From positions 23,807-85,974 of the forward strand of contig NZ_LR734879.1 in NCBI RefSeq assembly GCF_900010725.2: 62,168 nt of DNA. The letters run 5' to 3'. The translations under genes and the position numbers were made by a program. Below are positions 2,192 through 31,563 of the stretch, one piece after another (within the stretch, counting starts at the first letter, position 1; each line of letters starts with the position of its first letter). The notes below the pieces were generated by a model. The model was not told where the DNA came from, searched no databases, and saw only the letters and a program-made list of their open reading frames with translations. This DNA is from Planktothrix serta PCC 8927. Lineage in GTDB: Bacteria; Cyanobacteriota; Cyanobacteriia; Cyanobacteriales; Microcoleaceae.

Positions 2192-2301
2192 CTTTGAACA
2201 AATTTTATGGATTAAGCTTCTAAAATAGTCCTTGCAGAAGAGTTGGGGTGGCGCTATGCCATAATTAATGAGAGCATATATTCAAAGGATTAATAAGGAC
2301 T

Positions 2302-2929: not shown

Positions 2930-3026
2930 TTGTAAGTTTTGCTACCGTCGATGCACCAGGAGTTGGAGGGTGGGGTAAAATCTTTGGAGTAGTGGTAAGA
3001 TAGAAAAATGAATTTAAGGTTGTTTT

Positions 3027-3251: not shown

Positions 3252-3663
3252 ACGATTTTCTTTTATCGAACGCAGGAATCAAGCAGGAGAGGCTAATGTT
3301 TTTCCTTGTGTGCCCATAACTTTAAGCTATCACGATTGTGTTTTAGAAGTTGTTGGTTTGTTAGATACGGGAGCGAGTCTTAATATTTTACCGTACCATG
3401 TTGGTTTAGCGTTAGGAGCCGTTTGGGAGGAGCAAACGCTTTCAATTCCGTTAGCAGGTAATCTTGCGCCAGTGGAAGCAAGGGGTTTAGCCGTTGTGGG
3501 ACAGGTTAGCGATTTTCCACCTGTTCGTTTAGCTTTTGCTTGGGCTAAATCTAACGATCCGCCTATTATTTTAGGTCAGTTAAACTTTTTTCTGGAGTTT
3601 GATGTCTGTTTTTATCGTTCACAATTAGCATTTGAAGTATGTCCTAAATTTAGAGAAAATTGA
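3238..3663 (+). CDS. Retropepsin-like (clan AA) aspartyl protease
   Basis: 141 residues. The single-domain retroviral-type aspartyl protease signature LLDTGASLNILPYHVGLALG lies at about residues 41-60 (catalytic Asp in D-T-G-A-S). It is followed by a flap-like region and the second family motif, a hydrophobic strand then ILGQLNFFLEFDVCFY. Such proteins act as homodimers. The start ATG overlaps the upstream gene. Substrate is unknown. Its place among toxin-antitoxin modules suggests a linked stress or conflict function, but this is inference. Confidence 0.75.
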   Translation: MRNAKRFSFIERRNQAGEANVFPCVPITLSYHDCVLEVVGLLDTGASLNILPYHVGLALGAVWEEQTLSIPLAGNLAPVEARGLAVVGQVSDFPPVRLAFAWAKSNDPPIILGQLNFFLEFDVCFYRSQLAFEVCPKFREN

Positions 3664-3668
3664 GATTA

Positions 3669-3902
3669 TCAAGATTCTAAAATAGTCCTTTGTAACCAAG
3701 TAATAATAGTTTGAATTAGGTGGGGATCTTGGGGTGAGAAGGTGGGAATGGTGGGATGGGGTGAGTCGGTGATAACGCAAATTGTAGCGTCGAAGCGAGT
3801 GAGAGAATCCAGAAAAGTTTGGCTAAAACCTTGAGGTTTCGCTTCCTTAACTGGTTCTGCTATAACACGAGAGTAGAAGGTGTGGCATTTGAGATCACTC
3901 AT
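3669..3902 (-). CDS. Small protein coupled to the NLR-like ATPase gene
   Basis: 77 residues from the ATG at 3902, which overlaps the last codons and stop of the upstream ATPase gene by 8 nt, so translation is probably coupled. The frame is open further upstream (to 3947), but that part is inside the ATPase gene. The sequence has a cysteine-containing start (MSDLKCHTFYSR), a central hydrophobic strand (DATICVITDSP) and a C-terminal amphipathic helix (HLIQTIITWLQRTI). I do not recognise a family. It may be a partner of the ATPase or a C-terminal fragment of a formerly larger protein. Confidence 0.5.
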   Translation of the reverse strand: MSDLKCHTFYSRVIAEPVKEAKPQGFSQTFLDSLTRFDATICVITDSPHPTIPTFSPQDPHLIQTIITWLQRTILES

Positions 3903-8609: not shown

Positions 8610-9650
8610 ATGATTTTGCCTCCCGAAGTGTCTCCGGTATTAGATTGCTTAATTGTTGATTCTCATGACCAGGATGTACAAATTTTATCTCGAATTTTAG
8701 GTAAACAAAATTATCAGGTTAGAACCGCTTTTAATGGAACTGTAGCTTTAAAAGAGTTAGATCTCAAGGTTCCTGATATTGTTTTTTGGGATTGTTCAGA
8801 ACAACAAAATCACGATTTTAATTTTGACGTTTTTTTTGACTTTTACCGGACGAAAGAACAGAATATTATTATTTTTTTCTTGATCTCATTTCCAGAGTAT
8901 GGCTGTTCAATTTCTTTAGAAAATCACTTTTATTGTGAATATATTAGAAAACCGTTTTATCCTGAAGAAATTATTTTAAGAGTTAAAAATATCTGGGATT
9001 ATCGTCAAAGCCAGAAGGTTATGGAAGACTCCTTGATTCAGTTAGAGCAGGAGGTTTCGACTCGCCAGAAGCTAGAATATAAACTTGAACAAATTAGCCA
9101 AAAGTTACAAACGACAACAGAACAGTTAACTTATTTGAGTCGGTTTGATACCTTAACTCAATTAGCAAACCGTCCTTATTTTGATGAATATTTATTCAGA
9201 GAATGGCAACGTTTAGCACGCGAAAGAATGCCCTTATCCTTAATTATTGGGGACGTGGATGGGTTTCAGAGCTATAACGAAGTGTATGGATATCAACAGG
9301 GAGATATCTGTTTACAAACCCTGGCTAAAACAATGATCGATTGTATTAAGCGTCCGGCGGATTTAATTGCTCGTTATAGTGGGGAAGAATTTGCAGTCCT
9401 TTTACCCCATACCAGTAGTGCTGGGGCGATAGAAGTTGCCAAATTAATCCGAGCTAAAATTAAACAACTAGAAATTTACCACCCTAAATCCGAGATCAGT
9501 TCCTACCTGACCCTGAGTTTAGGGGTGGCTACGGTCATTCCTCAGCCTGAACTCCCCCCAAATCCCTTGATCACCGTTGCCGAAGAAGCTCTACAGGAAG
9601 CCAAACGGCAAGGTTGCGATCGCATTGGTGTAGGAGTCCATTGGCGTTAG
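8610..9650 (+). CDS. Response regulator with GGDEF (diguanylate cyclase) domain
   Basis: 346 residues. Residues ~9-130 are a receiver domain: LDCLIVDSHDQDV supplies acidic residues, FWDC the phospho-accepting Asp, and IRKPF the conserved Lys-Pro. A short coiled coil (~140-180) leads to a GGDEF domain starting at FDTLTQLANRPYFDEYL. The active-site loop reads RYSGEEF, so the first Gly of GGEEF is Ser. SGEEF is found in active cyclases too. An inhibitory I-site R-x-x-D (RPAD) lies five residues before it. Predicted role: phosphorylation-controlled synthesis of c-di-GMP. No cognate kinase is adjacent. The start ATG has no clear Shine-Dalgarno site. Confidence 0.9.
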   Translation: MILPPEVSPVLDCLIVDSHDQDVQILSRILGKQNYQVRTAFNGTVALKELDLKVPDIVFWDCSEQQNHDFNFDVFFDFYRTKEQNIIIFFLISFPEYGCSISLENHFYCEYIRKPFYPEEIILRVKNIWDYRQSQKVMEDSLIQLEQEVSTRQKLEYKLEQISQKLQTTTEQLTYLSRFDTLTQLANRPYFDEYLFREWQRLARERMPLSLIIGDVDGFQSYNEVYGYQQGDICLQTLAKTMIDCIKRPADLIARYSGEEFAVLLPHTSSAGAIEVAKLIRAKIKQLEIYHPKSEISSYLTLSLGVATVIPQPELPPNPLITVAEEALQEAKRQGCDRIGVGVHWR

Positions 9651-9667
9651 AGAAGGGTTAAAGACGT

Positions 9668-9865
9668 TTATTGAGATTTTTTAGTCTCGACTTTTTCCGG
9701 TTCCCCATCCTCATTATTTCCGGTGTAATCATTCAGTGTTGTCCAACGGTCTAGTTGGATTTGATTAACCTCAGATTTGGACGGAATTGCCTGAGCAGCA
9801 GCAACCGAGAACACGGTGAAACTGGTAGACGCAACCAGTCCTAAAACAACAATAATATTTTTCAT
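9668..9865 (-). CDS. Small secreted protein of unknown function
   Basis: 65 residues from the ATG at 9865, with AGGGG upstream; the frame extends to 9916 but without a plausible ribosome site. A typical signal peptide (MKNIIVVLGLVASTSFTVFSVAAAQA) is followed by a short hydrophilic mature part ending EDGEPEKVETKKSQ. No family recognised. It converges with the diguanylate cyclase gene, the two stops being 18 bp apart. Confidence 0.6.
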   Translation of the reverse strand: MKNIIVVLGLVASTSFTVFSVAAAQAIPSKSEVNQIQLDRWTTLNDYTGNNEDGEPEKVETKKSQ

Positions 9866-10357
9866 GAAATGGCCCCTGATGGTGATCAAAATAGATGCTT
9901 TAATTGAACGGAACAAAGGATCACAGGGTTGTTAAAACCTGATCACACTCTGGAGGATGCACGGTAGACCAGAAGCGGTTGAGGTAGATGTGCATAAAGA
10001 CTTAACCACTTCTTTGTGTCTTTATCTTCCCTCGATCTTCAGGATTTGGGGAGCAGGGAGTAACCCATCAGGGGGGTATGGGGTGCGGGGTGAAGAAGCT
10101 TATGGGATGTGGGGTGTGAGGTGTAGGGGGGAATAAAAAAATCTAAAAAAATTTGGGTTAACCGATGCTGTATAATCCTTAAATTGCATACTTCTAATGC
10201 AACTGTTGAATAGGCAAGAGGTTATTAATACAAACCTCTTAATTTGTAGTGGGGCAATTGGAAATTGTACTCCCATTATTTTCTTGATCTTAAATTTTAG
10301 ATTTCAATAAAATATCTATGCTAATATGATTGATTTTTGATTAATTCTGGATATTTT

Positions 10358-10399
10358 GTATTGTAGATTACAATTTACTCGGTGAAATTCCTCTAGTAT
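10358..10399 (+). promoter_or_regulatory. NtcA-activated promoter of the urt operon
   Basis: GTATTGTAGATTAC at 10358-10371 is an exact GTA-N8-TAC NtcA site. After 22 bp it is followed by TAGTAT (10394-10399), an exact TA-N3-T -10 box. This is the canonical class II layout of NtcA-dependent nitrogen-starvation promoters. Transcription would start near 10406, leaving a leader of about 178 nt before urtA. The remainder of the 9866-10583 intergenic region holds no other gene that I recognise. Confidence 0.85.
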
Positions 10400-10583
10400 A
10401 CAAAACCTGAATGGGAAATTGTTCTAACCATATCTTCATCGAATAGCAGAAAATCGTGAAGTTTTAAGCGCTTTTATCTACTACTCGATGTTTCGATTCA
10501 ACCAATTCACAGTTGGCGGAGATGGTAAAGAAAATGACCTATTCTCAAACCAACTTTTTAAGTTAAATACCTAAATAGTCATC

Positions 10584-11924
10584 GTGAAAAAAAGATTAGG
10601 TAGACGCAAATTCTTAGTTTTTGGTTCAGCAGCCTTTGGAAGCACCTTTTTCCTCAAAGGTTGTGCCAACTCTGCAACTAATACCACGAGTCAAACGCCA
10701 ACCAGTGACGCCAGCCCAACAGCAACAACAGCAAGTACCAGTACAGGAAGTGGCGATACAATTAAGGTGGGAATTCTTCACTCTTTGAGTGGAACTATGG
10801 CAATTAGTGAAACCACCGTTGTTGAAGCCGAAAAATTAGCAATTAAAGAAATTAATGCCAATGGTGGCGTACTCGGTAAACAAATTGAAGCGATAATTGA
10901 AGATGGGGCTTCTGACTGGCCGACCTTTGCCGAAAAAGCTCAAAAATTGATTGATCAAGATAAAGTAGTAACGGTTTTTGGGTGTTGGACATCTGCTAGT
11001 CGTAAAGCCGTCAAAGATGTATTTGAATCCAAAAACCATATGTTATGGTATCCGGTTCAATACGAAGGTCAAGAATGTTCTAAAAACATTTTTTATACCG
11101 GGGCTGCTCCTAACCAACAAATTGAACCTGCTGTTCAATGGTTAGTTGACAACAAAGGGAGAGAATTTTTCTTAGTCGGCTCAGACTATGTTTTCCCCCG
11201 CACGGCTAACACGATTATTAAAGAACAATTAGCCGCTATTGGTGGAACAACGGTTGGGGAAGATTACTTACCGTTAGGGAATACGGAAGTTACCCCAATT
11301 ATTACCAAAATTAAACAGGCTTTACCCGATGGAGGGGTAATTTTTAATAGTCTGAATGGAGATAGTAACGTTGCTTTCTTCAAACAGTTACAAGGGGCAG
11401 GAATGACCCCCGATAAATATCCCGTGATGTCGGTGAGTATTGCGGAAGAAGAAGTGCGACAAATTGGTAAGGATTTCCTTCTCGGTCACTATGCCGCTTG
11501 GAATTATTTCCAAACCGTAGATACTCCTACAAATAAAAAATGGGTAGAAGCATTTAAAGCGGAATATGGACAAGATCGGGTAACAAATGACCCAATGGAA
11601 GCCGCTTATATCATGGTTTATTTGTGGAAACAAGCCGTAGAAAAAGCGGGAACTGCTGATGATTTAGAAAAGGTTAGATTAGCGGCTGTGGGTCAAAGTT
11701 TGGATGCTCCCGAAGGCAAAGTTACGATGTTCCCTAACCATCATATTTCTAAAACTGTGCGAATTGGACAGGTGAGAGATGATGGATTATTTGACATTGT
11801 TTGGGCAACAGAAGGCCCCGTTGATCCCGTTCCCTGGAACCAATTTGTACCCGCCACAAAAGGCTATGCTTGTGACTGGACAGATCCCACTAAAGGGGAA
11901 AAATTCCAACTGCAAGGAACTTAA
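10584..11924 (+). CDS. urtA: Urea ABC transporter, substrate-binding protein UrtA
   Basis: 446 residues from a GTG start. The N-terminus [19 protein letters not shown] followed by FFLKGC combines a twin-arginine-like R-R-K-F-L signal with a lipobox cysteine, so the mature protein should be a lipoprotein. A Thr/Ser linker precedes the type I periplasmic binding fold ([17 protein letters not shown]...). The family-specific stretches [17 protein letters not shown] and [14 protein letters not shown]-like region mark the urea/short-amide-binding subgroup. It is the first gene of the complete urtABCDE operon behind an NtcA promoter and captures urea for high-affinity uptake when nitrogen is limiting. 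Confidence 0.95.
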
Positions 11925-11948
11925 TTAATCCTAATTAATCCTAGATTT

Positions 11949-11979
11949 GATCCCCCTAAATCCCCCTTAAAAAGGGGGA
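11949..11979 (+). repeat. Stem-loop between urtA and urtB
   Basis: GATCCCCCTAAA followed by TCCCCCTT-AAA-AAGGGGGA (11961-11979) forms an 8-bp perfect hairpin. It belongs to a widespread cyanobacterial repeat type (other versions near 19180 and 62060). Between a binding-protein gene and its permease genes, such a hairpin could protect or attenuate the mRNA and so raise urtA expression over urtBCDE; this is inference. Confidence 0.6.
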
Positions 11980-12020
11980 CTTTGACTTTCTAATTCCCCC
12001 TTTAACAGTTTTTCCTCAAA

Positions 12021-13184
12021 ATGCAAGACCTATTCATTGCCATATTTAATGGAATTAGCATCGGTTCGGTGTTGTTAATGGCAGCATTAGGACTCGCAAT
12101 TGTCTTTGGACTCATGGGTGTAATTAACTTAGCTCATGGGGAACTGATTATGTTAGGAGCCTATACAACGTTTGTCGTTCAAAATATCTTCAAACCGTTA
12201 GGCGAACCTCTATTTAGCACCTATATTATTTTTGCCATTCCGATTGCCTTTATCGTCACCGCCTTAGTCGGATTAGCCTTAGAACGGGGTGTGATTCGGT
12301 TTTTGTATGGAAGACCCCTAGAAACTTTATTGGCAACTTGGGGAGTCAGTTTAATTTTACAACAATTTGTTCGCAGTGTTAGTACCACATTTGCCATCGG
12401 AATTGTTATATTTTGCCTACTCTTTTTTGGAGGTTTGTGGGTACTGCGTCGTCGTCCCCATTGGGAAATAATTCGACAATGGGCGATTTCCGTTTTATTC
12501 CTTTTATCATCAGCAACAGCCCTCTCCATAGGATTAGTAATTGGACAAAGCCAAAAAGCCTTAGCAAAACCTTGGTTTAGTGATAGAAACGTGGATGTTA
12601 CGGCGCCTCCTTGGTTGCGAGGGGGATTAGAATTAGGGAATTTTCAGGTTCCCTATTCCCGTGTTTTTATTATTATTTTAACGATTCTGTGCTTAATCGT
12701 AATTTATTGGTTTTTCAACCAATCAAATTGGGGATTAAGAATTCGCTCAGTCACCCAAAATCGTACCATGAGCGCCTGTTTAGGGATTCCCACCGATACC
12801 GTTGATGCTCTTACCTTTTCCATCGGTTCAGGACTCGCAGGAATTGCCGGATGTGCGATTACATTATTAGGATCAGTTGGGCCCAATACCGGACAAAATT
12901 ATATCGTTGATACGTTTATGGTGGTGGTAGTTGGAGGGGTAGGAAATCTCTTAGGAACAGTTATTGCCGCCTTCGCCATTGGTGTTACCAGTTATTTAAT
13001 TGGTTCAGGAACTCTGGCGTTATTATTAACCAACCTTAATGCTGCACCATTCTTTGTGGATTTCTTTAATTTTTTCGCCACAACTAGCTTGGCAAAAGTA
13101 TTAGTGTTCGTGTTAATTATTGCCTTTTTACAAATCAAACCGTCAGGAATTTTTCCACAGAAAGGGAGAACGGCTGAACTATGA
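12021..13184 (+). CDS. urtB: Urea ABC transporter permease UrtB
   Basis: 387 residues of branched-chain-amino-acid/urea permease type (LivH-like), with many hydrophobic segments starting at LFIAIFNGISIGSVLLMAALGLAIVFGLMG. The family motif NLAHGELIMLGAY and the late cytoplasmic loop NWGLRIRSVTQNRTMSACLGI followed by LAGIAGC are clear. It forms the membrane channel with UrtC. The stop overlaps the urtC start (ATGA), indicating coupled translation. A 96-bp spacer with a hairpin separates it from urtA. Confidence 0.95.
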   Translation: MQDLFIAIFNGISIGSVLLMAALGLAIVFGLMGVINLAHGELIMLGAYTTFVVQNIFKPLGEPLFSTYIIFAIPIAFIVTALVGLALERGVIRFLYGRPLETLLATWGVSLILQQFVRSVSTTFAIGIVIFCLLFFGGLWVLRRRPHWEIIRQWAISVLFLLSSATALSIGLVIGQSQKALAKPWFSDRNVDVTAPPWLRGGLELGNFQVPYSRVFIIILTILCLIVIYWFFNQSNWGLRIRSVTQNRTMSACLGIPTDTVDALTFSIGSGLAGIAGCAITLLGSVGPNTGQNYIVDTFMVVVVGGVGNLLGTVIAAFAIGVTSYLIGSGTLALLLTNLNAAPFFVDFFNFFATTSLAKVLVFVLIIAFLQIKPSGIFPQKGRTAEL

Positions 13185-18187: not shown

Positions 18188-18750
18188 AACCAGTTTCATA
18201 GTATAATAGACTAACTGCATCTTCCTTTTTTAGCGATCACGTCCATAAAAACACAAATCATTGAGTCAGAGTCGAGGGGTGATGATGTGTTCGGCAATGT
18301 GGCACTCCACTTTAAGAAAAATTAAGATAAACTATAGATAACCCTCTACTCACAAAACTTTCGGTTCAAAAACAGTCTGTTTTGATACAGAAAAGTTTTT
18401 CCTGGGAGTTCTGTCACATCTTCTTTTACTACTGTTCCTCTAATTTATAACCCTAAAAATAGAGGTTTTTAATGCTTGAGGGTTAAGGGAAAAACTGTAA
18501 TGATCTGAGAAAAACAAACCCGTTTTTTGAGTTCCTCGTATTTCTCTTGTGCCCTTGTTATCTACCCTAACCTTAGTAATGTGCCTGTAGTCCTTAATTA
18601 ACCTGAAGTGATGATCAATTAATTCGTTCATCCCTACGCGGAAATCAATTGTTTGATCAAAGCAGAGTTGAGTCTAACTGTATAAAAATTCAGAGACTCT
18701 TAATAACAAAAGACTACGATTATTCAGTGTTTAAAAATTGAGGAGAATCC
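18188..18750. other. 563-bp intergenic region without a recognised gene
   Basis: An A/T-rich spacer. Imperfect inverted repeats (about 18354-18400, AAAACTTT with AAAGTTTT) could form a stem-loop in RNA. An open frame on the minus strand (18440-18631) has no family similarity or ribosome site, so I do not call it. The last ~30 bp contain the AGGAG ribosome site of the next gene. A regulatory RNA cannot be excluded, but I see no known family. Confidence 0.4.
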
Positions 18751-18969
18751 TTGAGTATGGGTGCAATCCATAAGCTGGTTAACCAGACTTTAGAACAGGG
18801 TTATTTAACCCAAAAGGTTGAAGCAGAACTCAGAGAACTGTTACAAACAACCAAATATAGCCAAGATGATTTTGAAGCGTTTATTCGATTACAAAATGCT
18901 GCAATTGATGGATTAGTAAAACAAGAATCCCGTGAACAATTAAAAATCTTAAGCATAGCAATTGCTTGA
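18751..18969 (+). CDS. Small conserved helical protein of unknown function
   Basis: 72 residues from a TTG start at 18751 (AGGAG at 18740-18744, spacing 6), or 70 from the ATG at 18757, the more usual codon but further from the ribosome site. The sequence GAIHKLVNQTLEQGYLTQKVEAELRELLQTTKYSQDD is all helical, with a charged centre, and looks like a conserved soluble cyanobacterial protein. I do not know a function. A strong terminator follows it. Confidence 0.65.
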   Translation: MSMGAIHKLVNQTLEQGYLTQKVEAELRELLQTTKYSQDDFEAFIRLQNAAIDGLVKQESREQLKILSIAIA

Positions 18970-19005
18970 GAAATAATGGCTCACTAAAACATCCCTTAAT
19001 TGTCG

Positions 19006-19075
19006 GGTGCGTCGGCGGAATATTAGATCTTAAAAAATCTAATCATAAATCCGCCGCCCGCACCAACTTTTTTTA
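19006..19075 (+). terminator. Rho-independent-type terminator
   Basis: GGTGCGTCGGCGGA (19006-19019) pairs with TCCGCCGCCCGCACC (19050-19064). An inner TTAGAT/ATCTAA stem sits inside, and a run of eight T residues follows. It lies 36 bp after the small gene ending at 18969 and is built from the GGTGCGT-type palindrome also seen near 50130 and 60850. Confidence 0.75.
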
Positions 19076-19179
19076 ATTTCAAACAAAAATTTAGTTGCTG
19101 GCGCGAGACCATTAGTGTCAACTTTAACGCTAAAAGTAGGCGATCAAACCATAATTTCCTTGATCTGATCCCAAGTCAA

Positions 19180-19560
19180 TGATCCCCCCTAACCCTGCTT
19201 AACAAGCAGGGCTGTTTCATTCTCGGATCTAAAATGCGATCGCCTGAGAATAGAGGGCGGGTTTAGGGAGATAATTACTGATCATTAAAGCTCGTCTCGG
19301 AACCCGCCCCTACGGTTTAATTGTTGATTATTGCTCAAATGCGATGCCGCAAGGCGGCGGCTACGCCATCAGATTTTTTCAACAACAAAATGTAGGGGCG
19401 GGTTCTGTAATTATCTTCAATTCTAACCAATAATCTGACTAAACCCGCCCATCTTCAATGAGATCGCCTTTTTACTATTAATATGAAATCCCTAAATGAT
19501 CCCCCCAACTCCCCAGGGCTGTTTCAAAGTCAGATCTAAAATGCGATCGCTAGATGGGTT
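19180..19560. repeat. Intergenic cluster of GGGCGGGTTT and CCCCCTAACCC repeats
   Basis: Two ~60-bp units with inverted GGGCGGGTTT / AACCCGCCCCTAC ends lie at about 19253-19313 and 19391-19450, in opposite orientation. GATCCCCCCTAACCC units with the AACAAGCAGGGCTGTTTC tail type lie at about 19180-19215 and 19498-19530. HIP1 octamers are interspersed. No gene is seen between 18970 and 19657. Confidence 0.7.
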
Positions 19561-19657
19561 AACCTCTGAACGGATTGACGCAGGTATTCCAGTAGAACAT
19601 ACTACCAAAAGTTTTGTGATATTATGATCAACGGTATAAGTTTCTAACTAAACTACC

Positions 19658-20818
19658 TTGAGTGAGATTTGTACGGCAGTTACCCCTGGTCAATCTTTGA
19701 CCGATTTCCAAAAAACAGGTTTGGAATGGGTAGGGCGTCTACAGGGTGGGCGAGATGTGGTACTGGCCATTGACCTAACCGAAAGCGTTGGTTTGAATGA
19801 TGAGGGCCACATTCGGTTACGCCAAATTGTTGAAGACAGCTTAAAATCAGGAGATACGGTTTATGTTGTGCCTTTTGCTACAAAAGTTAATCCTTTAGAA
19901 CCGGAGATTAACCCCCTAAAATTAGAAGCTGCCATTCAGTTTAAGGGGAAAACTGATGTAGAAAAGATTTTGCAAGTGATTCCGTTTCAGGCGAATCTGA
20001 ATCTGCAAAATACTGATATTCAACGGGCTGAGTTAACCATCTATCAAGGTTTAGCGGATCTGAATCAATGTCGTTTAACCCAGAATCAACCGATTAAACC
20101 CCAATCGGTGGTTTGGATTACCGATGCACAACTATTCACGAAATCCCCCGCGAATTCCCAAGAATGGATAGAAACCCCAGGGGACAGTCCCTTTCGAGTG
20201 GGAACGTCTCAAGAAACACAACAGCGTCAACAGTGGTTAGAAAAATTACCATTAATCCCCCGTTCTCTCTCAATTAAAACCCAAGATCAGCAAAAATATA
20301 ACCTGACTATTGTTGATCTTCCCCCCACTGTCCAAGAATTTTGTACTCCTACACCCGGATTAAAACAAACTTGTTTAGTCCCCCCGTATTTATGGAAACA
20401 GTTATCCTTACCTGCGTTAACTTTAGTCATCCTAATTCTAGCTAGTATAGGTCTAGGAATTAAAGTTTATTATCTCAATAAAAAATGGAAAATTACTATC
20501 AATTTCGCAGATAAAAAAACAGAAGAACAAACCGTTTATCTGCGTAATCATCAAAGAATTTCTATCGGTGAATATGAATCTAACTGCAACCATTCTATTG
20601 ATACACCAGGAGCAGAAATTCGAGGTTATTTAATGAGGAAAGGAGAAAAATTATATTTAGAACCAACCCCAGATAGTCTCCTTGAATATAACGGTCAAAA
20701 CCTGACTAAAAAAACACCTATATCCGGTGTTTCATTTCAATTAAATTGTCCCTATTCAAAAACAGGAAATTCTCAAGCCAAAAAGAATTACGAATTTACA
20801 ATTAAAATTCAAAAATAA
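19658..20818 (+). CDS. vWA-domain membrane protein of an FtsZ-like/OmpA system
   Basis: 386 residues. A von Willebrand A domain (~33-240) has the MIDAS motif DLTESVG (D-x-T-x-S, one Ser replaced by Thr) and WITDAQ. One transmembrane segment follows (~252-273, LPALTLVILILASIGLGIKVYYL). The ~115-residue C-terminal beta-rich domain resembles an FHA fold (ISIGEYESNCNHSI ... LLEYNGQNL) but lacks the FHA phosphopeptide-binding residues. Lys-rich NKKWK after the helix suggests a cytoplasmic C-terminus and a periplasmic vWA domain. Yet no signal peptide is visible: a stop lies three codons before the TTG at 19658 and no ribosome site is obvious. The start may be wrong, or the N-terminus lost. First gene of a four-gene operon. 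Confidence 0.75.
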   Translation: MSEICTAVTPGQSLTDFQKTGLEWVGRLQGGRDVVLAIDLTESVGLNDEGHIRLRQIVEDSLKSGDTVYVVPFATKVNPLEPEINPLKLEAAIQFKGKTDVEKILQVIPFQANLNLQNTDIQRAELTIYQGLADLNQCRLTQNQPIKPQSVVWITDAQLFTKSPANSQEWIETPGDSPFRVGTSQETQQRQQWLEKLPLIPRSLSIKTQDQQKYNLTIVDLPPTVQEFCTPTPGLKQTCLVPPYLWKQLSLPALTLVILILASIGLGIKVYYLNKKWKITINFADKKTEEQTVYLRNHQRISIGEYESNCNHSIDTPGAEIRGYLMRKGEKLYLEPTPDSLLEYNGQNLTKKTPISGVSFQLNCPYSKTGNSQAKKNYEFTIKIQK

Positions 20819-20835
20819 CCAGGGAGAAATTAATC

Positions 20836-23800
20836 ATGCAATCTAACGACTATCAACTACAAGGAATTCAACGGACAATTTGTATTGGATTAGGAGGAAC
20901 TGGACGAGACGTTTTAATGCGACTGCGACGGTTAATTGTGGAACAGTATGGGGATTTAACAAAATTGCCAATTGTTAGTTTTGTTCATATTGATACCGAT
21001 AAAACAGCAACTCAAGGCTCAAGTTTAAAAACAGGTAATACTTATCGGGGTGTTGATTTAAGTTTCCGAGATTCTGAAAAAATTAATGCGATTCTAACCG
21101 CCGCCGAAGTGACTAATTTTGTTCAGGGAGTAGAACAGCGTTCTAATTATGATCGTCAAGGGCCTTATGATCATATTTCGCGGTGGTTTCCCCCCCAGTT
21201 ACTGCGTAATATTAGAGCAGTTGAAGAAGGAGCAAAAGGAATTCGACCTGTGGGAAGATTAGCCTTTTTCCATAATTATCAAAAGATTAGAACCGCCATT
21301 GAAACCGCAGAAAGACGAACGATGGGGCATGAAGCTATTCTACTCAAATCAGGATTAAAAGTTGATCCCGGATTAAATATTTTTGTAGTTGGTTCTTTGT
21401 GTGGTGGAACCGGAAGCGGAATGTTTTTAGATATAGCCTATAGTTTAAGAAAATTATATGGAGATAAAGGGACTCAATTATTAGGATATTTAGTCATTAG
21501 TCCGCAATTATATAGCAATGCTTCCTATATGAATGCTAATACTTATGCCGCCTTAAAAGAATTAAATCATTACAGCAGTCCGGGGACTCGATTTGAAGCC
21601 TGTTATGATATGCAAAATTTAGTTCTGGTTAAAGAACCTCGCGCCCCCTTTGATTATACTTATTTAATCTCTAATCAAACTAACGGTGAATATACAATAT
21701 TAGAACAGCAAAAATTATGTAATGTGATTGCTCATAAAATTGCGTTAGATTTTTTAGGAGAATTAGCACCCGTCGCTAAAGGAATGCGGGATAATTTATT
21801 AACCCATTTAATTCAAGCGGATAATCACCCCCGTCCTAATCCTCAAGGGTATTTAACCTTTGGGTTAGCTGCTATTTATTTCCCGCGTGAAATTATTGTT
21901 AAAATTGCCTTAAATCGGATTAGTTTAAAACTATTAAATTTTTGGTTAAATGGTGAAGGACAAAGCCCTGACCCCCAATTAATACTTGAACAATTTATGA
22001 TCAAGTATAAATGGCATAGTGATTCAAAAGAACGGGATGGCTTTACAGAACGATTAACAGAATCCGTTCAAGAAGGGAGTCAAAGTTTTACTAATACCTT
22101 GACGAAATGGAGAAACAACTTAATCAACAACAAAATCAATGAATGTAAGAATCGAGAGAATCGTTTGGAATTAAAAACAGATTTATCGTGGCAATTTAGA
22201 GCCCAATTTAGAAAGGTTCAGCCGGGAGAAAACGAAACAACGCGAGGGATTTGGTTGACGCGGTTATTACAGATACGCCCCGTTATTACTAAACAGTTAA
22301 AAGATCATATTAATGAGTTTATTGCTGAATTGATGACCCCCAGTAATCCTAATTTTTCGATTAAAACTGTTCGGGACTGGTTAGATGCGATGGAAACGGA
22401 TTTAAACAGTTATCAACGTCAGTTAGAGGAAGAAATTTCTCAAGCTGGAGGAATGAAAAAAATCGAAGATATGGAGAATAAATGGCGAGATATACAACGG
22501 GAAATAGATGATATTGAGGAGAAAATAGAACTGCCATTATTTAATAGCAAAAATCGCAATATCCAGAAAAAAGCCGAGAGTGCTGTTAGGAAAATTTTTA
22601 AGTTAATTGAAGATAATTTTAAGTTAACAGCGAATCAGGAAGCCTTAAAAATTGTCGGCGATTTGCAAAAATATATTAGAGATTATTCGGTGCAAACCTC
22701 CGGTTTTAGCCGAGTTATTGAAAATTGGAAAACTGACTATGAAAAAGAACAGAAAGATCTAATCAATTCTAATTTTAATGAAATGAGTGGAGAGGCAATT
22801 TTCGCTCAAGAAGATATTGAAGAATGTTATCAAACCCTCTTGCCAGAGATTAATTTTCGCTCTCAGTTAGTGTTAGTGAGTAAAGATATTACGGAAGCAT
22901 CAGGTGTGGAAGAATCCCTCTCTTATTTGATGGATCGTAGCACTTTAGAACAACTGAAAACCGAAATTAATCAAGAAATAGATAGTGTATTTGGTTCCCG
23001 TAGTAATCAAATTGTCAAATCTGTCATTAAGCGTTTTATCCAAAATTATTCCGCTTCAGTCCGTCCTATCCGTTTAGGGCAAATTATCCAAGAAGCTGAA
23101 CCTTTATTGCGTTTAAATTCCAGTGATCCTTATTTTTCTAACTTACCTGATAAACTCAAACAATTTATTGGATTTAAAGATACGGACGAATTAGACGTTA
23201 ACCAATTTAAAAGTATCCTGACTCACGATTTAGGCATCGATCCAACCATCCTAAAACCCTCTCAAGCTGAAGATCAAATTTTAATCGTCAAGGAATATGG
23301 CGGGTTTCCTTTAAGATTGATTAATGGTTTAGAAGAAATCAGAAATCATTATATTCGAGAACAAAATCGAGAGGGGTCTTCCTGTCATTCTGATTATCAG
23401 ATTCAATTTACCGATATTATCCCCCCTGATGCACACTTAATAGAAAAATTGGCAGATGTTTTCTATCCTTGTTTGGCTTTTGAGTTAATTTTTCTAAATC
23501 CAGAAACCCAGGTTTTACAGTTGGAATATTATGATGATTTAAGAAGCTGCTATTATACAGCCGAACTCAGTCCAGTTTGGAATCAAAGTTTAGAAGAATT
23601 GGCAAATAATCAAGAAATGACAGCCACTTTAAACGAGTTATTAGAGAATGTGATTTCTCAGATTCGGCAAAATTATAATCTTTGGGAAAATAACTATTTA
23701 CTGAAGCTACAGAAGTTTGTGGATTATGTAGATAAATTACCAGAATCTAGTCCTAATTATTCCTGTAAATCAACGGTTGTCGGTGTTCGAGGAACTATTC

Positions 23801-24024
23801 TAAAAGAAGGAGTTATTAATCGTTTAATTCAACGAATTAAAGGAATTAAAGGGGAAATTACAAGTCTTCCGTCTTCTGTCAATGACCATCCCCCAGTAAG
23901 AGGTCGTGACAGTTTAGAGCGAGAATTGAAGCAGCTACAAAAAGAATTCGACCAGGGAAATTTTAATCAGAGAGGATATGAAGTAAAAAGAAAGGAAATT
24001 ATGGATAAATATGGTTTATCCTAA
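20836..24024 (+). CDS. Large FtsZ/tubulin-like protein (FtsZl1 / tubulin_2 type)
   Basis: 1062 residues. The N-terminal GTPase-like part has a Gly-rich loop CIGLGGTGRDVLMRLRR (~16-32) and the tubulin/FtsZ signature variant LCGGTGSGMFLDIAYSL (~188-204; FtsZ has GGGTGTG). Then follow ~850 residues, largely helical with coiled-coil stretches (e.g. around QLEEEISQAGGMKKIEDMENKW). The protein is far longer than FtsZ. Related proteins were predicted in comparative genomics to belong to a membrane-remodelling system with vWA and OmpA-family partners, which are exactly the neighbours here. AGGGAG precedes the ATG, 17 bp after the vWA gene. Confidence 0.8.
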   Translation: MQSNDYQLQGIQRTICIGLGGTGRDVLMRLRRLIVEQYGDLTKLPIVSFVHIDTDKTATQGSSLKTGNTYRGVDLSFRDSEKINAILTAAEVTNFVQGVEQRSNYDRQGPYDHISRWFPPQLLRNIRAVEEGAKGIRPVGRLAFFHNYQKIRTAIETAERRTMGHEAILLKSGLKVDPGLNIFVVGSLCGGTGSGMFLDIAYSLRKLYGDKGTQLLGYLVISPQLYSNASYMNANTYAALKELNHYSSPGTRFEACYDMQNLVLVKEPRAPFDYTYLISNQTNGEYTILEQQKLCNVIAHKIALDFLGELAPVAKGMRDNLLTHLIQADNHPRPNPQGYLTFGLAAIYFPREIIVKIALNRISLKLLNFWLNGEGQSPDPQLILEQFMIKYKWHSDSKERDGFTERLTESVQEGSQSFTNTLTKWRNNLINNKINECKNRENRLELKTDLSWQFRAQFRKVQPGENETTRGIWLTRLLQIRPVITKQLKDHINEFIAELMTPSNPNFSIKTVRDWLDAMETDLNSYQRQLEEEISQAGGMKKIEDMENKWRDIQREIDDIEEKIELPLFNSKNRNIQKKAESAVRKIFKLIEDNFKLTANQEALKIVGDLQKYIRDYSVQTSGFSRVIENWKTDYEKEQKDLINSNFNEMSGEAIFAQEDIEECYQTLLPEINFRSQLVLVSKDITEASGVEESLSYLMDRSTLEQLKTEINQEIDSVFGSRSNQIVKSVIKRFIQNYSASVRPIRLGQIIQEAEPLLRLNSSDPYFSNLPDKLKQFIGFKDTDELDVNQFKSILTHDLGIDPTILKPSQAEDQILIVKEYGGFPLRLINGLEEIRNHYIREQNREGSSCHSDYQIQFTDIIPPDAHLIEKLADVFYPCLAFELIFLNPETQVLQLEYYDDLRSCYYTAELSPVWNQSLEELANNQEMTATLNELLENVISQIRQNYNLWENNYLLKLQKFVDYVDKLPESSPNYSCKSTVVGVRGTILKEGVINRLIQRIKGIKGEITSLPSSVNDHPPVRGRDSLERELKQLQKEFDQGNFNQRGYEVKRKEIMDKYGLS

Positions 24025-24108
24025 CAAAAACAGTTGGGTTGTAGAATTTTTAACTCAACCCATGATTGAGTTTTTACCAGACTTATTTTAAATCTTCAGG
24101 ATGTTGCT

Positions 24109-25785
24109 ATGGCTATTTTTGTTCTCCCTCCTTGGATGTTCGCTCTGATTATTCTGTTTGTGGTTTTACCCTCGTTTATGAGTATGTATTATCGGTTAAA
24201 TCTCTATCGACATCTCAATGATTTAGCTGATAAAGTTAATCGGGTTATCAGTAAAAATGCGCCTGGAATTCAGCCTAAGATTATCACAATATTAGAACAG
24301 AGTTTTAAGCAAGCTAGTCAAAATTTAGAACAGGTGAACACGGGGGCTTTAATTGATCAAGCCTATAGTCAAGAAAAGGTTTTAGGGAAATCCTGTGAAC
24401 AAATTGATTATTTTTGTCGAATTCTTCCTAACTTACTCCTGGCTTTTGGATTAATTGGAACCTTTATTGGAATTACCATGAATTTGAATTCCTTGAGTCA
24501 AGCTATTCTTCAAAATCCAGATCAAACCAAGGATTTCATTCAGTTATTAAAGAAATTGGAAGAACCCCTAAAAGGAATGACGATCGCTTTTTCTACCAGT
24601 TTGGCGGGGTTATTCTTTAGTGCTTTGTTAACTATTTTTAACTTTTTTTACAATACCAATTTAGCTAAATATAAATTAATTAATTCTTTGGAACACTACC
24701 TCGATAATATTTATTATTCTACATTAGATAATCAAACCAGACTTGATAAAATTGTATCAGGAATGTCGAAGCAGTTTGAGAATTTTTTAACAAAATTTGG
24801 TGATACAGTTAGAGATGCTGTAGAATCAGCCATGAGAGATAATATTAAGGAAATTACACAAGCTAATGTAGAAGCGAGTCAACTAGCGCAAAAAGTTTAT
24901 AATCAATTATCAAATGTAGCTGGAACATTGGATAGAGGGGCGAATAATTTCCAGACTGCAACAGAAGCCTTTGGAAATTCTGTACAAATCAATGATAAAA
25001 TTGTGGTAAAATTAGAACAGGTTGTAGAAAGTTTTGAACAGAGTCAGGTTCCCCAACAATTATCAACAATAGCTACTAATTTCGGCGATTACCAAAAGAA
25101 TTTTTCTGACTCTGCATTGGGTTTAGCTCAAACAGTTAAATCTCTGGAAGATACCTTAACTCAACTTCAGAATTTTACTCAACAATTAGTGACGACGGAA
25201 GCCAGTTTCACTCAACTAAATCAGAGTTCATTACAAGTTTTTAAATTGCATCAAACTAATCAACAATCTCTCTCTGAGATGATTATTCAACTAAAAGAAG
25301 GATCACAGGGATTTGAATTGGCTTCACAAACCTTAGATCAGATCCAAAAACAAATTGTTGATAAATCCGATAGTTTTGTGCAAGTTCAACAAGACTTAAA
25401 AACTATCGTTGAAACAATGAATGGTTATACAAATAATGTCAATACAAAAATAGAATATTTAACTAAAGTTCTGGTTAAACTGATCAGAAATCAAGAGAAT
25501 AGTCATCAATCTTATTCTCAAGCGATCGCAGATAAATTAGACGAATCAATTAAACCTAATGTTCAGTATTTTGTTGAGATGAGATCCGATTTATCACAAG
25601 TAATTAAGATTTTACAAGCACAAAATAACCAAACAATTCACTCAGATTTATCACAAGTAATCAAACTTTTACAAGAACAAGATAACCAAACAATTCACTC
25701 AGATTTATCACAGTTAATTAAACTATTACAAGAACAAAATAACAGGAGTCAAAATAAGAAAAAATTCAAATTTTGGGGTTTATAA
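24109..25785 (+). CDS. MotA/TolQ/ExbB-like channel protein with long coiled tail (ZorA-like)
   Basis: 558 residues. There are three predicted membrane helices at ~8-28, ~104-126 and ~158-182. The second carries FGLIGTFIGI and the third AFSTSLAGLFFSAL, the two signature helices of MotA/TolQ/ExbB ion channels. Residues ~190-540 form a long Gln/Asn-rich helical tail. It ends in three 19-residue repeats (SDLSQVIKLLQEQ type) encoded by 57-bp DNA repeats at 25588-25758. A channel with a long cytoplasmic tail is the design of ZorA in Zorya anti-phage motors. The OmpA/MotB-like partner follows after 33 bp. The gene lies 84 bp after the FtsZ-like gene. Confidence 0.75.
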   Translation: MAIFVLPPWMFALIILFVVLPSFMSMYYRLNLYRHLNDLADKVNRVISKNAPGIQPKIITILEQSFKQASQNLEQVNTGALIDQAYSQEKVLGKSCEQIDYFCRILPNLLLAFGLIGTFIGITMNLNSLSQAILQNPDQTKDFIQLLKKLEEPLKGMTIAFSTSLAGLFFSALLTIFNFFYNTNLAKYKLINSLEHYLDNIYYSTLDNQTRLDKIVSGMSKQFENFLTKFGDTVRDAVESAMRDNIKEITQANVEASQLAQKVYNQLSNVAGTLDRGANNFQTATEAFGNSVQINDKIVVKLEQVVESFEQSQVPQQLSTIATNFGDYQKNFSDSALGLAQTVKSLEDTLTQLQNFTQQLVTTEASFTQLNQSSLQVFKLHQTNQQSLSEMIIQLKEGSQGFELASQTLDQIQKQIVDKSDSFVQVQQDLKTIVETMNGYTNNVNTKIEYLTKVLVKLIRNQENSHQSYSQAIADKLDESIKPNVQYFVEMRSDLSQVIKILQAQNNQTIHSDLSQVIKLLQEQDNQTIHSDLSQLIKLLQEQNNRSQNKKKFKFWGL

Positions 25786-25818
25786 AGAATACCATTAATT
25801 GTTGTTATACTTAAAACT

Positions 25819-26532
25819 ATGCGCCGTCCCTCCCAAATTAATAACTCCTCTGAAGATCTAAATATCTGGCAAGCCTTCACAGATTTGATGTCCAATGCTT
25901 TTTTAATTATGATTTTGTTTTTATTAATAGGCATTGTTAAATCAGCATCAGATTCCAAAGTAAAAGATCAAACAATAAAAGACTCGAAGACGAAAATTAG
26001 CCAATTAGAAACAGAAATTAGACTATTACAATCCCCGCCTGTAATTGTAATTAAAGACTCTGATAAAGATAGCCAGGGACGCTCCTTAAAATTCGAGACG
26101 GGTAAGGCGGATTTACCAGAAGGTTTACGATTATTTGTTGAAGGAAATGTTGTTGACAAACTAGAGAAATATTCTCAAGATTATCAAGGTTATGTTGTGG
26201 ATATAATCGGACATACAGATGGTCAAGAAACTTTTAATCCAGCTAGTAATTTAGATCAGATATTAGAACAAGTTGCAGGGGGATCTCAACCCGTTAAAAA
26301 CCTTAAACCTGGTTCTAATGCTGATTTGGGATTAATGCGAGCTTTAGCTGTGATGAAAAAACTGCAAGCTATTCAAAAAAAAGGTCGTTTAAAGGGGTTG
26401 AACTTTAGAGCTTATTCGGCTGCTCAATTATTCTTACCTTCAGGAGAATATGCTCCCCGTAACCGCAGTTCAGATGAAACTAGGCGAAGGATAGAAATTC
26501 GTTTTACTCCCCCAGGAGTAAAAACAGATTAG
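25819..26532 (+). CDS. OmpA/MotB-domain protein (ZorB-like)
   Basis: 237 residues. A short N-terminus WQAFTDLMSNAFLIMILFLLIGI contains one membrane helix preceded by Asp22, the position of the ion-carrying Asp of MotB and ZorB. A coiled linker (~50-72) leads to an OmpA-like peptidoglycan-binding domain: VDIIGHTDGQ, then NADLGLMRALAVMKKL, FRAYSA and ETRRRIEIRF. It should form the stator/motor pair with the preceding MotA/ExbB-like protein, anchored to the cell wall. It is the last clear member of the vWA/FtsZ-like operon. Confidence 0.8.
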   Translation: MRRPSQINNSSEDLNIWQAFTDLMSNAFLIMILFLLIGIVKSASDSKVKDQTIKDSKTKISQLETEIRLLQSPPVIVIKDSDKDSQGRSLKFETGKADLPEGLRLFVEGNVVDKLEKYSQDYQGYVVDIIGHTDGQETFNPASNLDQILEQVAGGSQPVKNLKPGSNADLGLMRALAVMKKLQAIQKKGRLKGLNFRAYSAAQLFLPSGEYAPRNRSSDETRRRIEIRFTPPGVKTD

Positions 26533-26580
26533 AGCGATACATGATATAGTTTTCCTGTTGATTGTATTGCAATTAAAAAG

Positions 26581-26970
26581 ATGACTAAACTCAAGAAAAT
26601 ATTCAGTTTTTCCCTATCTACCCTACTGTATGGGATAGGTGGATTAACTTTTTTAGCTACTCCCAAAGCAGAAGCAGCAACAAATTTTAACTGTCCGGGC
26701 CAATTTCCTCAAAACAGAATGCAGTTTTCTGTGAGTTATCTTGATGGCCGATTTACAACCATTACGTTAACCCCTCAAAGTGGGCCACCTCGCACCAATC
26801 AATTAAGATATGATCGACCCAACGAGCGAGGAGAATTAGTGTATCGGGGGGGTGATATGGGAGGCGCTGATATCATTGTCATCGACTTATCAAAAGGAGC
26901 AGTTCAACCGGGTACAGAAGTTTCTGTTTCACTAGATGGACAGTGGGCGAGAGGAACTTGTAGTCTCTAA
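26581..26970 (+). CDS. Secreted protein of unknown function
   Basis: 129 residues. The signal peptide (MTKLKKIFSFSLSTLLYGIGGLTFLATPKAEA) is followed by a ~95-residue beta-rich mature part with two cysteines (FNCPGQF near the start, RGTCSL at the end) that could form a disulfide. No family recognised. It starts 48 bp after the OmpA-like gene in the same direction, so it may be co-transcribed with that system, but this is only positional. Confidence 0.6.
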   Translation: MTKLKKIFSFSLSTLLYGIGGLTFLATPKAEAATNFNCPGQFPQNRMQFSVSYLDGRFTTITLTPQSGPPRTNQLRYDRPNERGELVYRGGDMGGADIIVIDLSKGAVQPGTEVSVSLDGQWARGTCSL

Positions 26971-27045
26971 TTCAGTTAACTTTTAAAATAGGACTGACAC
27001 AGAAACCGAGTTCTGAATAATCAACCCGGTTTCTGGGAATAGGAT

Positions 27046-27546
27046 ATGATTTGTCATTTTATGATTGGTGTTCCCGGTTCGGGAAAGTCAACAGTTGCTC
27101 AACAACTGGCGGAACTTACGCAGGGTTTAATTATTTCTACCGATCGCATTCGAGAACAACTTTATGGGGATGAAATTATTCAGGGGAATTGGTTAGAAAT
27201 TGAAGGGGAAGTCTTGCGAGAAATGGAAAAGGCGATCGCGTCTTCTCAACCGATTATTTATGATGCGACCAATGTTTATCGACATTGGCGACTCGAACTA
27301 TTAGAAAAAATTGCCTTAATTTCTCCTGAAATTCCTCGTGTTTGGGTAGCTTGGGTATTAGAAACCCCGATAGAAACTTGCAAACAGTGGAATCAAAATC
27401 GCTCTCGTCAGGTTCCTGAATCTATTATTGAACAGATGGGGAATGCGATCGCCAATTGTCCTCCGACTCCCTCCGAAGGATTTATCAAAGTTTATTATTT
27501 AAAACCAGGCTATTTCGACTTAAAAACGCTACTAATATTATCCTAA
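27046..27546 (+). CDS. P-loop kinase of the polynucleotide-kinase/AAA_33 type
   Basis: 166 residues. Walker A GVPGSGKST is at residues 8-16, followed by STDRIREQLYGDE and IIYDATNVYRHWR, the D-A-T-N motif of T4 polynucleotide-kinase-like phosphotransferases. Arg residues in the lid (NRSRQVPESII) fit the fold. It probably phosphorylates a small molecule or nucleic-acid end; the substrate is unknown. The upstream intergenic space contains a degraded AGAAACCGGGTTTCT pair. The 3' end overlaps the convergent phosphorylase-like gene by 4 bp. Confidence 0.75.
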   Translation: MICHFMIGVPGSGKSTVAQQLAELTQGLIISTDRIREQLYGDEIIQGNWLEIEGEVLREMEKAIASSQPIIYDATNVYRHWRLELLEKIALISPEIPRVWVAWVLETPIETCKQWNQNRSRQVPESIIEQMGNAIANCPPTPSEGFIKVYYLKPGYFDLKTLLILS

Positions 27547-30173: not shown

Positions 30174-31352
30174 TTAAACCGTTGCGAAATGAAAGGATAC
30201 CCCCAACCCAGCCGCCATTTCTTCGGCGGTAATTTGACCATCGTTATCTTGATCCAGAGCATCAAATACGGCATCAGTTCCTGACCATTCTTCACGGGTA
30301 ATATAGCCATCTCCATCTAAATCATACGCCCGGAAAATGTCTTCGGCCGCATGGCTAATCACTTCTTTTCCTTCTAAACGAGCTAGGCGTTCAGTTAAGA
30401 ATTTTTCTAAGGCTTCTAAGGCTTTAGAAAACCCTTTAATTCCTTCTTCTAACTTCTCTGAAGCCATGGCATCTTCGGCGTGCATTCGGTTAAAAGTGTC
30501 TTGATCAATCGAGATTTTTTCCATCTCAAATGTCCCTACAGTTTTGGGGTCAAGTTTGCGGGGTAAGTCACCAATAGTAGATTGTAATTCTTCTAATAAG
30601 GCGGGAGAAATCGTTAATAAATCACAACCTGCTAACTCGGTAATTTCCCCAATATTACGGAAACTTGCCCCCATGACTTCTGTTTGATAACCGAATTTTT
30701 TATAATAGTTATAAATTCGGGTCACAGATAACACGCCAGGGTCTTCCTCTGGAGGATAGGAATCTCGCCCGGTGTCTTTTTTATACCAATCTAAAATCCG
30801 CCCCACAAAGGGAGAAATTAAGGTAGCCCCGGCTTCAGCACAGGCGATGGCTTGATGAATGCCAAATAATAGGGTTAAATTACAATGAATCCCTTCTTTT
30901 TCGAGAACTTCTCCGGCTTTAATTCCTTCCCAAGTGGAGGCAATTTTAATTAAAATGCGATCGCGGGAAATTCCAGCTGCTTCATATTGATCAATCAGAT
31001 AACGACCTTTAGCAATAGTGGCTTCGGTATCATAAGATAACCGAGCATCGACTTCCGTTGACACCCGCCCCGGAATAATTGCTAATATTTTTAATCCAAA
31101 GGCAACGGCTAACCGTTCAAAGGCTAAGGTTGCTACTTCTGAAGCGGAAGCACTCTCCCCTAACTCCTGACGAGCTTTTTTGAGGGTATCATCCACAATT
31201 TCCTCATATTGAGGCATTTGGGCGGCGGCGGTAATTAAGGAGGGGTTTGTGGTTGCATCTCTGGGGGTGTAGATTTCAATGGCTTGGATATCTCCGGTAT
31301 CCGCCACTACAACAGTCATGTCCCGCAGTTGTTCTAGTAGAGTTTGTCCCAT
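30174..31352 (-). CDS. tal: Transaldolase with C-terminal EF hands
   Basis: 392 residues from the ATG at 31352 ([21 protein letters not shown]), preceded by AAAGGACGG. The frame opens further upstream, but homologues begin here. The TalB-type catalytic part has DATTNPSLI and the Schiff-base Lys in [12 protein letters not shown], and extends to ~320. It is followed by two EF-hand loops, [13 protein letters not shown] and [13 protein letters not shown], with all calcium ligands. The enzyme moves a dihydroxyacetone unit between sugar phosphates in the pentose phosphate pathway. The EF hands suggest calcium control. It neighbours phosphoketolase and acetate kinase genes. Confidence 0.92.
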
Positions 31353-31563
31353 TAGTTTCCGTCCTTTATTTAGGTCATTAACAGTTAACGGTCGGCTGTT
31401 TCCATATAAAGTAAAGTATATCAAATCTGTTTTTTTTTTGACACTCTACTAAATGCCTCAATCTTGATAGAATCTCAACAATTTCGATCAAGAGTTTTAT
31501 TATTATAAACGATATAAAAAATCTGAGGTTAATCTTTATAAAAAAATTAGGATCGCTAAAAAT

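Follow-up and report, generated by a model that had tools for sequence, protein, structure and literature searches.

Can a tubulin-type GTPase and an ion-driven motor belong to one and the same bacterial gene set? The question is raised by a stretch of 62,168 nucleotides from the cyanobacterium Planktothrix serta PCC 8927 (contig NZ_LR734879.1, positions 23,807 to 85,974; this whole stretch is referred to as the window). At positions 19658..26532 it holds four adjacent co-directional genes, encoding a vWA-FHA protein, a Tubulin_2 protein, a channel protein and an OmpA protein:

19658..20818, plus strand: vWA-TM-FHA protein (TM, transmembrane helix), 386 amino acids, TTG start
20836..24024, plus strand: FtsZl1/Tubulin_2 GTPase, 1062 amino acids
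24109..25785, plus strand: ZorA-like channel subunit, 558 amino acids, three helices and a coiled-coil tail
25819..26532, plus strand: ZorB/MotB-like OmpA protein, 237 amino acids

An initial annotation, made from the sequence alone, had described these four kinds of protein, and our analysis confirmed them. It had further read the operon as an uncharacterised motor or defence system joining a cytoskeletal GTPase to a wall-anchored motor. We found that the four genes are indeed a conserved unit linking a tubulin-superfamily GTPase to a ZorAB-type pair, with co-occurrence, gene order and the ion-path and peptidoglycan-binding residues all conserved; the proposed role in defence was not supported. 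The parts are known kinds of protein, and among the open-licence papers listed for the subject none was seen, by title, opening of the abstract or passages covered, to describe their fixed combination.

Conservation of the four-gene unit across cyanobacteria

We surveyed a phylum-wide sample of 386 cyanobacterial genomes. At E <= 0.001, Tubulin_2 (PF13809) was matched in 74 of them and a profile of the ZorA-like N-terminal part in 70; a vWA-FHA profile matched 42 genomes at E <= 1e-10, over its full length in 40. Stricter lists, with cut-offs picked after the matches had been viewed, comprised 77 Tubulin_2 places in 65 genomes (E up to 9.7e-24, a few broken copies kept) and a clearly separate class of 49 ZorA-like places in 47 genomes (E up to 1.3e-58), 38 of which lie within 8 kb of Tubulin_2. 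Neither list contains the family of ~500-residue tubulin-like proteins, weaker fragments or the weaker ZorA hits, which include Zorya.

All 40 genomes with a full-length vWA-FHA match also carry Tubulin_2, and 39 of the 40 carry the strong ZorA-like gene. The exception (genome G243) is a decaying locus, in which the vWA gene and the tubulin-like gene are both interrupted by stops and a channel match is absent. The count of 40 omits partial or broken matches (a second copy in G276, G349 and G227) and includes three matches that contain one stop (G044, G079 and G243). Fisher values for the co-occurrence are descriptive only, because the sampled genomes are related. Among 76 Tubulin_2 loci, the window included, 35 had all four genes, four had three, one had two, and 36 had Tubulin_2 without the other three; three of the four three-gene loci stop at a contig end, and the fourth is G243.

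Gene order and strand were identical in 35/35 complete loci of the phylum sample and in 69/70 complete loci of a second, named collection, which consisted of the best 80 of 444 relatives from a contig scan. These 80 were cyanobacterial by title in every case and had all four genes in 70; six of the ten incomplete loci are cut by contig ends (L148, L149, L184, L189, L205 and L209). The two sets of counts are reported apart because their loci overlap, some contigs being of equal length. A lack of conserved co-occurrence, named beforehand as the outcome that would speak against the unit, was looked for and was not the case (39/40, 35/35 and 69/70). Recurrence in fixed order likewise rules out adjacency as a local accident of the window genome, and the four genes thus form a real unit that recurs across cyanobacteria. 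Outside them the neighbours differ at most loci, and no conserved fifth gene was found beside the unit across the phylum sample. In one genome (G048) the unit is scattered over a single contig with all parts open, the vWA and tubulin-like genes together near position 22 kb, the channel gene at 2.18 Mb and the OmpA gene at 2.93 Mb.

The motor pair

The channel protein has helices at about residues 2-20, 105-123 and 159-177, a G-x-x-G-T-F motif that includes T118, a serine at position 164, and a tail of ~330 residues predicted to form a coiled coil (profile hits to coiled-coil chains). The OmpA protein has an FTDLMSNAF helix with D22 at the helix start. We counted conservation over the phylum sample and the named loci pooled, duplicates and copies without a nearby tubulin-like gene included. 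G114, G117, T118 and G121 of the channel protein were conserved in 128/128 sequences and S164 in 128/129; D22 of the OmpA protein was found in 120/120, and the peptidoglycan-binding residues H132, T133, D134, L170, R174 and R222-224 in 121/121. The pair therefore carries the conserved B-subunit Asp and the opposing A-subunit Ser/Thr of MotA/ExbB/ZorA motors.

Both subunits are homologous to solved 5:2 ion-driven motors. The channel protein matched ZorA (8vvn_C) at E 1.6e-10 with the whole profile and 3.1e-6 with the channel part alone, and the OmpA protein matched ZorB (8vvn_B) at E 9.5e-6; in profile alignments against solved ZorA and ZorB/PomB, the GxxGTF, AFxTS, helix Asp, GHTD and RR(R)IEIRF elements are in register. 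By a motif reading, L170 and R174 would correspond to ZorB L199 and R203. In Zorya, ZorB D24/D21 packs on the ZorA Ser/Thr ring, D24 is required for defence, and H186, L199, R203, R254 and R259 of type I ZorB are required to bind peptidoglycan (PMC11890865). Zorya thus shares with the window a channel with a cytoplasmic coiled tail, a single-helix OmpA partner and matching Asp, Ser/Thr and peptidoglycan-binding residues (PMC11890865), and it is likely from these sequence correspondences that the window pair works like the ZorAB motor. The Pfam MotA_ExbB model did not match the channel protein at E <= 0.1, which bears on membership of that Pfam family and not on kinship with ZorA, because the ZorA branch may exceed the reach of the model.

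Conservation of the channel tail drops towards its end, and the protein as a whole measured 508-1108 amino acids among the loci surveyed, a range that omits a 1236-residue frame at L069 whose match falls mostly in the tail. Four loci of one genus, Microcystis-like by tree (L067, L069, L070 and L071), have channel proteins of 514 to 1108 amino acids; at L069 a 541-residue frame and the 1236-residue tail-like frame flank an unrelated open reading frame, perhaps an insertion in a long tail.

The tubulin-like GTPase

The product of the second gene matched Tubulin_2 (PF13809) with 361.8 bits against a cut-off of 27. It is laid out as a GTPase at ~11-370, a long helical insertion at ~380-770 and a second tubulin-fold part reaching to ~864; in the predicted structure the insertion splits the tubulin fold. 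The C-terminal tail is SHOCT-like, the SHOCT model being matched in relatives and not in the window protein itself. Six residues of the T4 loop were conserved in 143-145 of 145 tubulin-like sequences. The profile of the protein gave eight hits in the PDB, with designed helix bundles on top and tubulin absent.

In 2010 Makarova and Koonin placed FtsZl1 on a divergent branch of the tubulin superfamily and offered membrane remodelling as a general guess at its role (PMC2875224). The protein described there has, like the window protein, an N-terminal FtsZ-like domain, a coiled coil and a helical C-terminal part; several genomes combine the same GTPase family with a vWA and an OmpA partner, and the cyanobacterial sequences form a clade with a vertical pattern (PMC2875224). 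The difference is that the OmpA protein of the window is a MotB/ZorB-type motor subunit. The terms MotA, TolQ and FHA do not occur in the main text of PMC2875224, whose Additional file 6 could list the channel as an unnamed family.

If the 2010 proposal applied here as it stands, the OmpA protein would be a mere wall anchor of a membrane-remodelling tubulin system and no rotary motor would operate. That prediction rested on the associations of FtsZl1 with vWA and OmpA genes (PMC2875224), which the window shows as well. We consider it very improbable, because a plain anchor would need neither channel residues nor an ion-site Asp, and the unit has both: invariant channel residues in the ZorA homologue encoded by its third gene, and an invariant ion-site Asp in the OmpA protein. 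A ZorAB-type partner of one cyanobacterial FtsZl1 subtype instead turns the remodelling guess of 2010 into a testable mechanism.

The vWA-FHA protein

In an AlphaFold2 model examined with Foldseek/VIA, the first protein has a vWA fold at about residues 26-224 with the metal-binding residues of the DxSxS/T/D type (MIDAS, metal ion-dependent adhesion site: D39, T41, S43, T119 and D156), a single membrane helix at 241-274 and an FHA fold at 275-386. Canonical FHA domains bind phosphothreonine through GR, SxxH and NG residues. Inspected by eye, the window domain has IGE in place of GR, lacks SxxH and keeps NG in part, and it is possible that it is degenerate or a non-phospho binder. The protein matched no family in domain-model scans including Pfam, PADLOC and NCBIfam, and its profile gave no PDB hit at E <= 10.

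In 22 of 26 proteins Lys and Arg are more numerous after the helix than before it, and in one they are fewer, a charge bias that favours a cytoplasmic FHA and a periplasmic vWA domain. Cys229 and Cys239, directly before the helix, are invariant in 106/106 vWA-FHA sequences, which would suit a periplasmic disulfide. The frames begin with GTG, TTG or ATG, and no signal peptide is visible, because stops lie a few codons upstream of the starts in nearly all of 39 loci.

Relation to Zorya and to defence

Given the kinship of the motor pair with ZorA and ZorB, we compared the unit with Zorya. Against curated NCBIfam cut-offs the pair scored low: the channel protein reached 42.8 bits with ZorA_2 (cut-off 100) and the OmpA protein 17.4 with ZorB1 (cut-off 400). 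With the PADLOC ZorA1 model the channel protein gave E 1.1e-16, compared with 4.4e-195 for a separate ZorA of the same genome, which lies in a ZorA-ZorB-ZorC set recognised by PADLOC type I models (L130, G000:C5:149500-168000, positions 8615-12754; ZorB1 3.4e-71, ZorC1 3.8e-158; the set was read for these three genes, and ZorD was not sought). The vWA protein, the tubulin-like protein and the product of a 129-residue frame downstream of the operon matched no PADLOC family at E <= 0.1. ZorC/D, ZorE or ZorF/G were not seen beside the pair, and no Zorya effector was among the best 25 of 44 PADLOC families found for 131 flank proteins of 28 loci. In a tree, the strong ZorA-like sequences split from three Zorya ZorA rows at a branch with a Shimodaira-Hasegawa-like approximate likelihood ratio of 98, the Zorya rows being gappy with under half of the columns filled. 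Scores below the cut-offs, different partners (vWA-FHA and tubulin-like proteins) and the separate ZorABC set exclude that the system is Zorya; judged by its sequences, the pair is a sister of Zorya ZorAB on a branch of its own. The terms tubulin and FtsZ do not occur in the main text of the Zorya paper (PMC11890865). The unit suggests that ZorAB-type motors have served purposes other than Zorya.

A sister of ZorAB could still serve defence. In such an anti-phage or conflict system, the motor would sense envelope perturbation and the tubulin-like/vWA pair would replace the Zorya effectors, for example by building a GTP-dependent scaffold that would kill the cell or bring it to arrest. ZorA and ZorB are indeed the top matches of the motor pair among both family models and PDB chains, and the unit is patchy: the sample has two further genomes from the window's genus, and both lack it. 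Tubulin-superfamily proteins combined with vWA, HSP70 and GTPase proteins have been proposed as conflict systems elsewhere (PMC7159879); the window's four genes differ from these in having neither MoxR nor a TRAFAC GTPase, and a ZorA/MotA motor is not described in the parts of PMC7159879 covered. Vicinity to defence-type genes also occurs: on a Thermus plasmid the vWA and tubulin-like genes lie one gene from BrxL, on an Azospirillum plasmid a tubulin-like gene lies near caspase-family and OmpA genes, and a channel gene without a nearby tubulin-like gene (L120) adjoins GmrSD.

The surroundings of the unit itself point the other way. We compared 131 of 141 flank proteins (28 of 30 loci) with a control set, 131 of the 135 proteins in 20 regions that had been chosen by position. 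The flank proteins gave 44 PADLOC families at E <= 1e-10 and the controls 180, totals in which one protein may match several families, for which details cover the best 25 of each, and of which that of the controls is inflated by a few restriction and CRISPR-associated transposon (CAST)-type genes. Genes for PsbO, DNA polymerase III beta and ATP synthase A lie in the flanks; with these housekeeping genes and fewer matches than the controls, a defence-island location is excluded. On a tree of 78 tubulin-like proteins, taxonomic order changes 10 times, where five changes would be the minimum and shuffling gave a mean of 30.1, and the Chroococcales (13 rows) alone need eight changes; this nearness to taxonomic order suggests mostly vertical descent with loss. 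An alignment search of viral contigs with the channel protein gave 34 pattern matches and no relatives, a single search of plasmids with the same protein gave no match, and none of the four proteins matched a nuclease or toxin family. As the unit does not lie in defence islands and the tubulin tree is largely taxonomic, the defence role suggested initially is not supported, and we regard it as rather doubtful.

Proposed coupling of the motor to the tubulin-like protein

Our best reading, held with about even confidence, is that of one envelope machine in which a rotary motor, driven by ions and anchored to the wall, is coupled to a tubulin-like GTPase close to the membrane. Starting from the gene identities, conserved residues, genetic linkage and predicted folds given above, we propose the following for its assembly, ion flow, tail-tubulin contact, filament formation and cellular purpose. 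The ZorA-like and ZorB-like subunits would form a motor of the MotAB/ZorAB type, presumably 5:2, in which ions would pass Asp22 of the OmpA protein and a ring of Thr118 and Ser164 of the channel protein, the OmpA domain gripping peptidoglycan. The long cytoplasmic tail bundle would pass rotation or a conformational change to FtsZl1, which is predicted to have a complete tubulin fold broken by a coiled-coil arm and ends in the SHOCT-like tail. The vWA-TM-FHA protein could act as a membrane-embedded adaptor or switch through metal-dependent, perhaps phospho-dependent, binding, and the GTP state, possibly together with phosphorylation, would license or load the motor, which would exert its force on tubulin-like assemblies at the inner membrane. 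The more specific proposal, that the tails of this cyanobacterial motor move or load membrane-associated FtsZl1 assemblies under vWA-FHA gating, is put forward tentatively.

Similar logic is found in Myxococcus gliding, where the MotAB-like AglRQS motor is tied functionally to the cytoskeletal protein MreB (PMC9120999). MreB is actin-like, and the likeness to the window unit proposed here is one of logic. AglRQS is not known to have long tails or an OmpA domain. If the coupling is true, motor-driven FtsZl1 would match Agl-MreB on the tubulin side and add a new principle to the bacterial cytoskeleton. Another related arrangement is that of the vWA-TolQ force transducers, in which vWA proteins with a membrane helix are encoded beside MotA/TolQ-type genes; there the vWA protein provides the ion-site or TonB-like helix (PMC12204202), whereas the window has its ion-site Asp on the OmpA protein and a tubulin-like GTPase in addition. 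Neither tubulin nor FtsZ occurs in the main texts of PMC12505986 and PMC12204202, which treat the evolution of MotAB and force transducers.

Several observations weigh against our best reading. Of the 49 strong ZorA-like places, eleven are not near Tubulin_2, and they fall inside the family tree at several points, meaning that this tubulin is no prerequisite for the motor; the OmpA partner adjoins nine of the eleven, and the scattered unit of G048 (L113) is one of them. Conversely, the other four incomplete loci of the named collection have a tubulin-like gene and lack the channel gene: in L182 and L200 the tubulin-like gene stands by itself, in L206 the 2.2 kb that follow contain no channel gene, and L153 has an OmpA gene in addition. 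The poorly conserved tail end and the length range of 508-1108 amino acids are odd for a specific contact with tubulin. A classical T7 catalytic loop was not identified in the GTPase, its candidate Asp379 being D in only 108/146 sequences. Finally, the topology of the vWA protein is in conflict, since its charges favour a vWA domain on the outside yet a signal peptide is not visible.

A rival reading is an energiser of the ExbBD/TolQR kind, in which the channel and OmpA proteins would supply only envelope energy, for outer-membrane maintenance or transport, and the tubulin-like and vWA-FHA proteins would act as a regulatory switch, with neither filaments nor mechanical coupling involved. The motor pair found without tubulin at several loci fits this explanation, as do the vWA and FHA domains, which resemble binding and signalling modules, and the T6-H7 region of FtsZl1, which could not be confidently identified (PMC2875224). 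We nevertheless consider it unlikely. The four-gene order is strict, and a dedicated transport partner is not seen, since the phylum sample shows no conserved fifth neighbour of the unit. The long cytoplasmic tails are like those of ZorA and unlike TolQ/ExbB.

The association of motor and tubulin-like genes also has a second instance. At L121 (689-11596) the motor follows, in operon-like fashion, a ~500-residue tubulin-like protein of a second family and a 1090-residue protein that resembles FtsA at a score short of the model cut-off (PF14450, E 1.2e-4) and that we take to carry HSP70/actin-type motifs. At L122 (1-11677) such a tubulin-like and FtsA/HSP70-like pair adjoins the motor on the opposite strand. 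Because both genomes belong to one family (f5), the pairing counts as one or two events. It links the ZorAB-sister motor to a tubulin-like protein for a second time, and it also recalls the tubulin/HSP70/GTPase conflict systems. Profiles of the second tubulin-like family and of its FtsA/HSP70-like partner gave no PDB hits. The window genome has such a pair as well (L060, G000:C1), with a tubulin-like protein of ~498 residues and a GGTGASG loop at 756-2246 and a 1083-residue FtsA/HSP70-like protein directly downstream at 2249-5500; the pair recurs in L058, L059, L061 and L062.

Other tubulin-like genes sit in other gene sets, the neighbour clusters being identified by a domain scan of one representative each. 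They accompany a ~610-residue vWA protein and a ~1020-residue protein (L053, L054 and L079-L082), a periplasmic-binding-protein-like and a ~300-residue gene (L086, L088, L091 and others), or a gene of the metallo-beta-lactamase fold, mostly together with one of the aspartate/ornithine carbamoyltransferase type (L092, L095-L099 and L102), or they lie downstream of chemotaxis-like genes (L083-L085). The motor partner thus goes with one FtsZl1 subtype. Several culture-collection strains carry the unit, Calothrix sp. PCC 7103 and Fischerella sp. PCC 9431 with all four genes among them, which makes cyanobacteria a place to ask if ion-driven rotation can act on a tubulin homologue.

Neighbouring genes

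Scans of window positions 18200-27100 found 26 promoters, with 29.2 expected, and five terminators, with 6.1 expected. Two downstream genes were considered as a fifth member and rejected. The 129-residue open reading frame at 26581-26970, 48 nt downstream of the operon and with an N-terminus that looks secreted by eye, matched only itself when the window and 80 other loci were compared. A downstream protein of ~830-1000 residues, seen at L107 (1871-4438) and in similar form at L040, L043, L108 and L114, recurs in only some loci; it had no Pfam match in the copies scanned (L107 and L114) and at L114 lies near a motor without the tubulin-like gene.

On the Thermus oshimai plasmid pTHEOS01 (L233, 3712-13363), annotation lists TROVE, vWA, tubulin-like, hypothetical and BrxL genes in a row; an annotated ZorA is absent from this neighbourhood and from that on the Azospirillum plasmid. 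In the window itself, positions 30174-31424 encode a transaldolase with two C-terminal EF hands (Pfam TAL_FSA and EF-hand).

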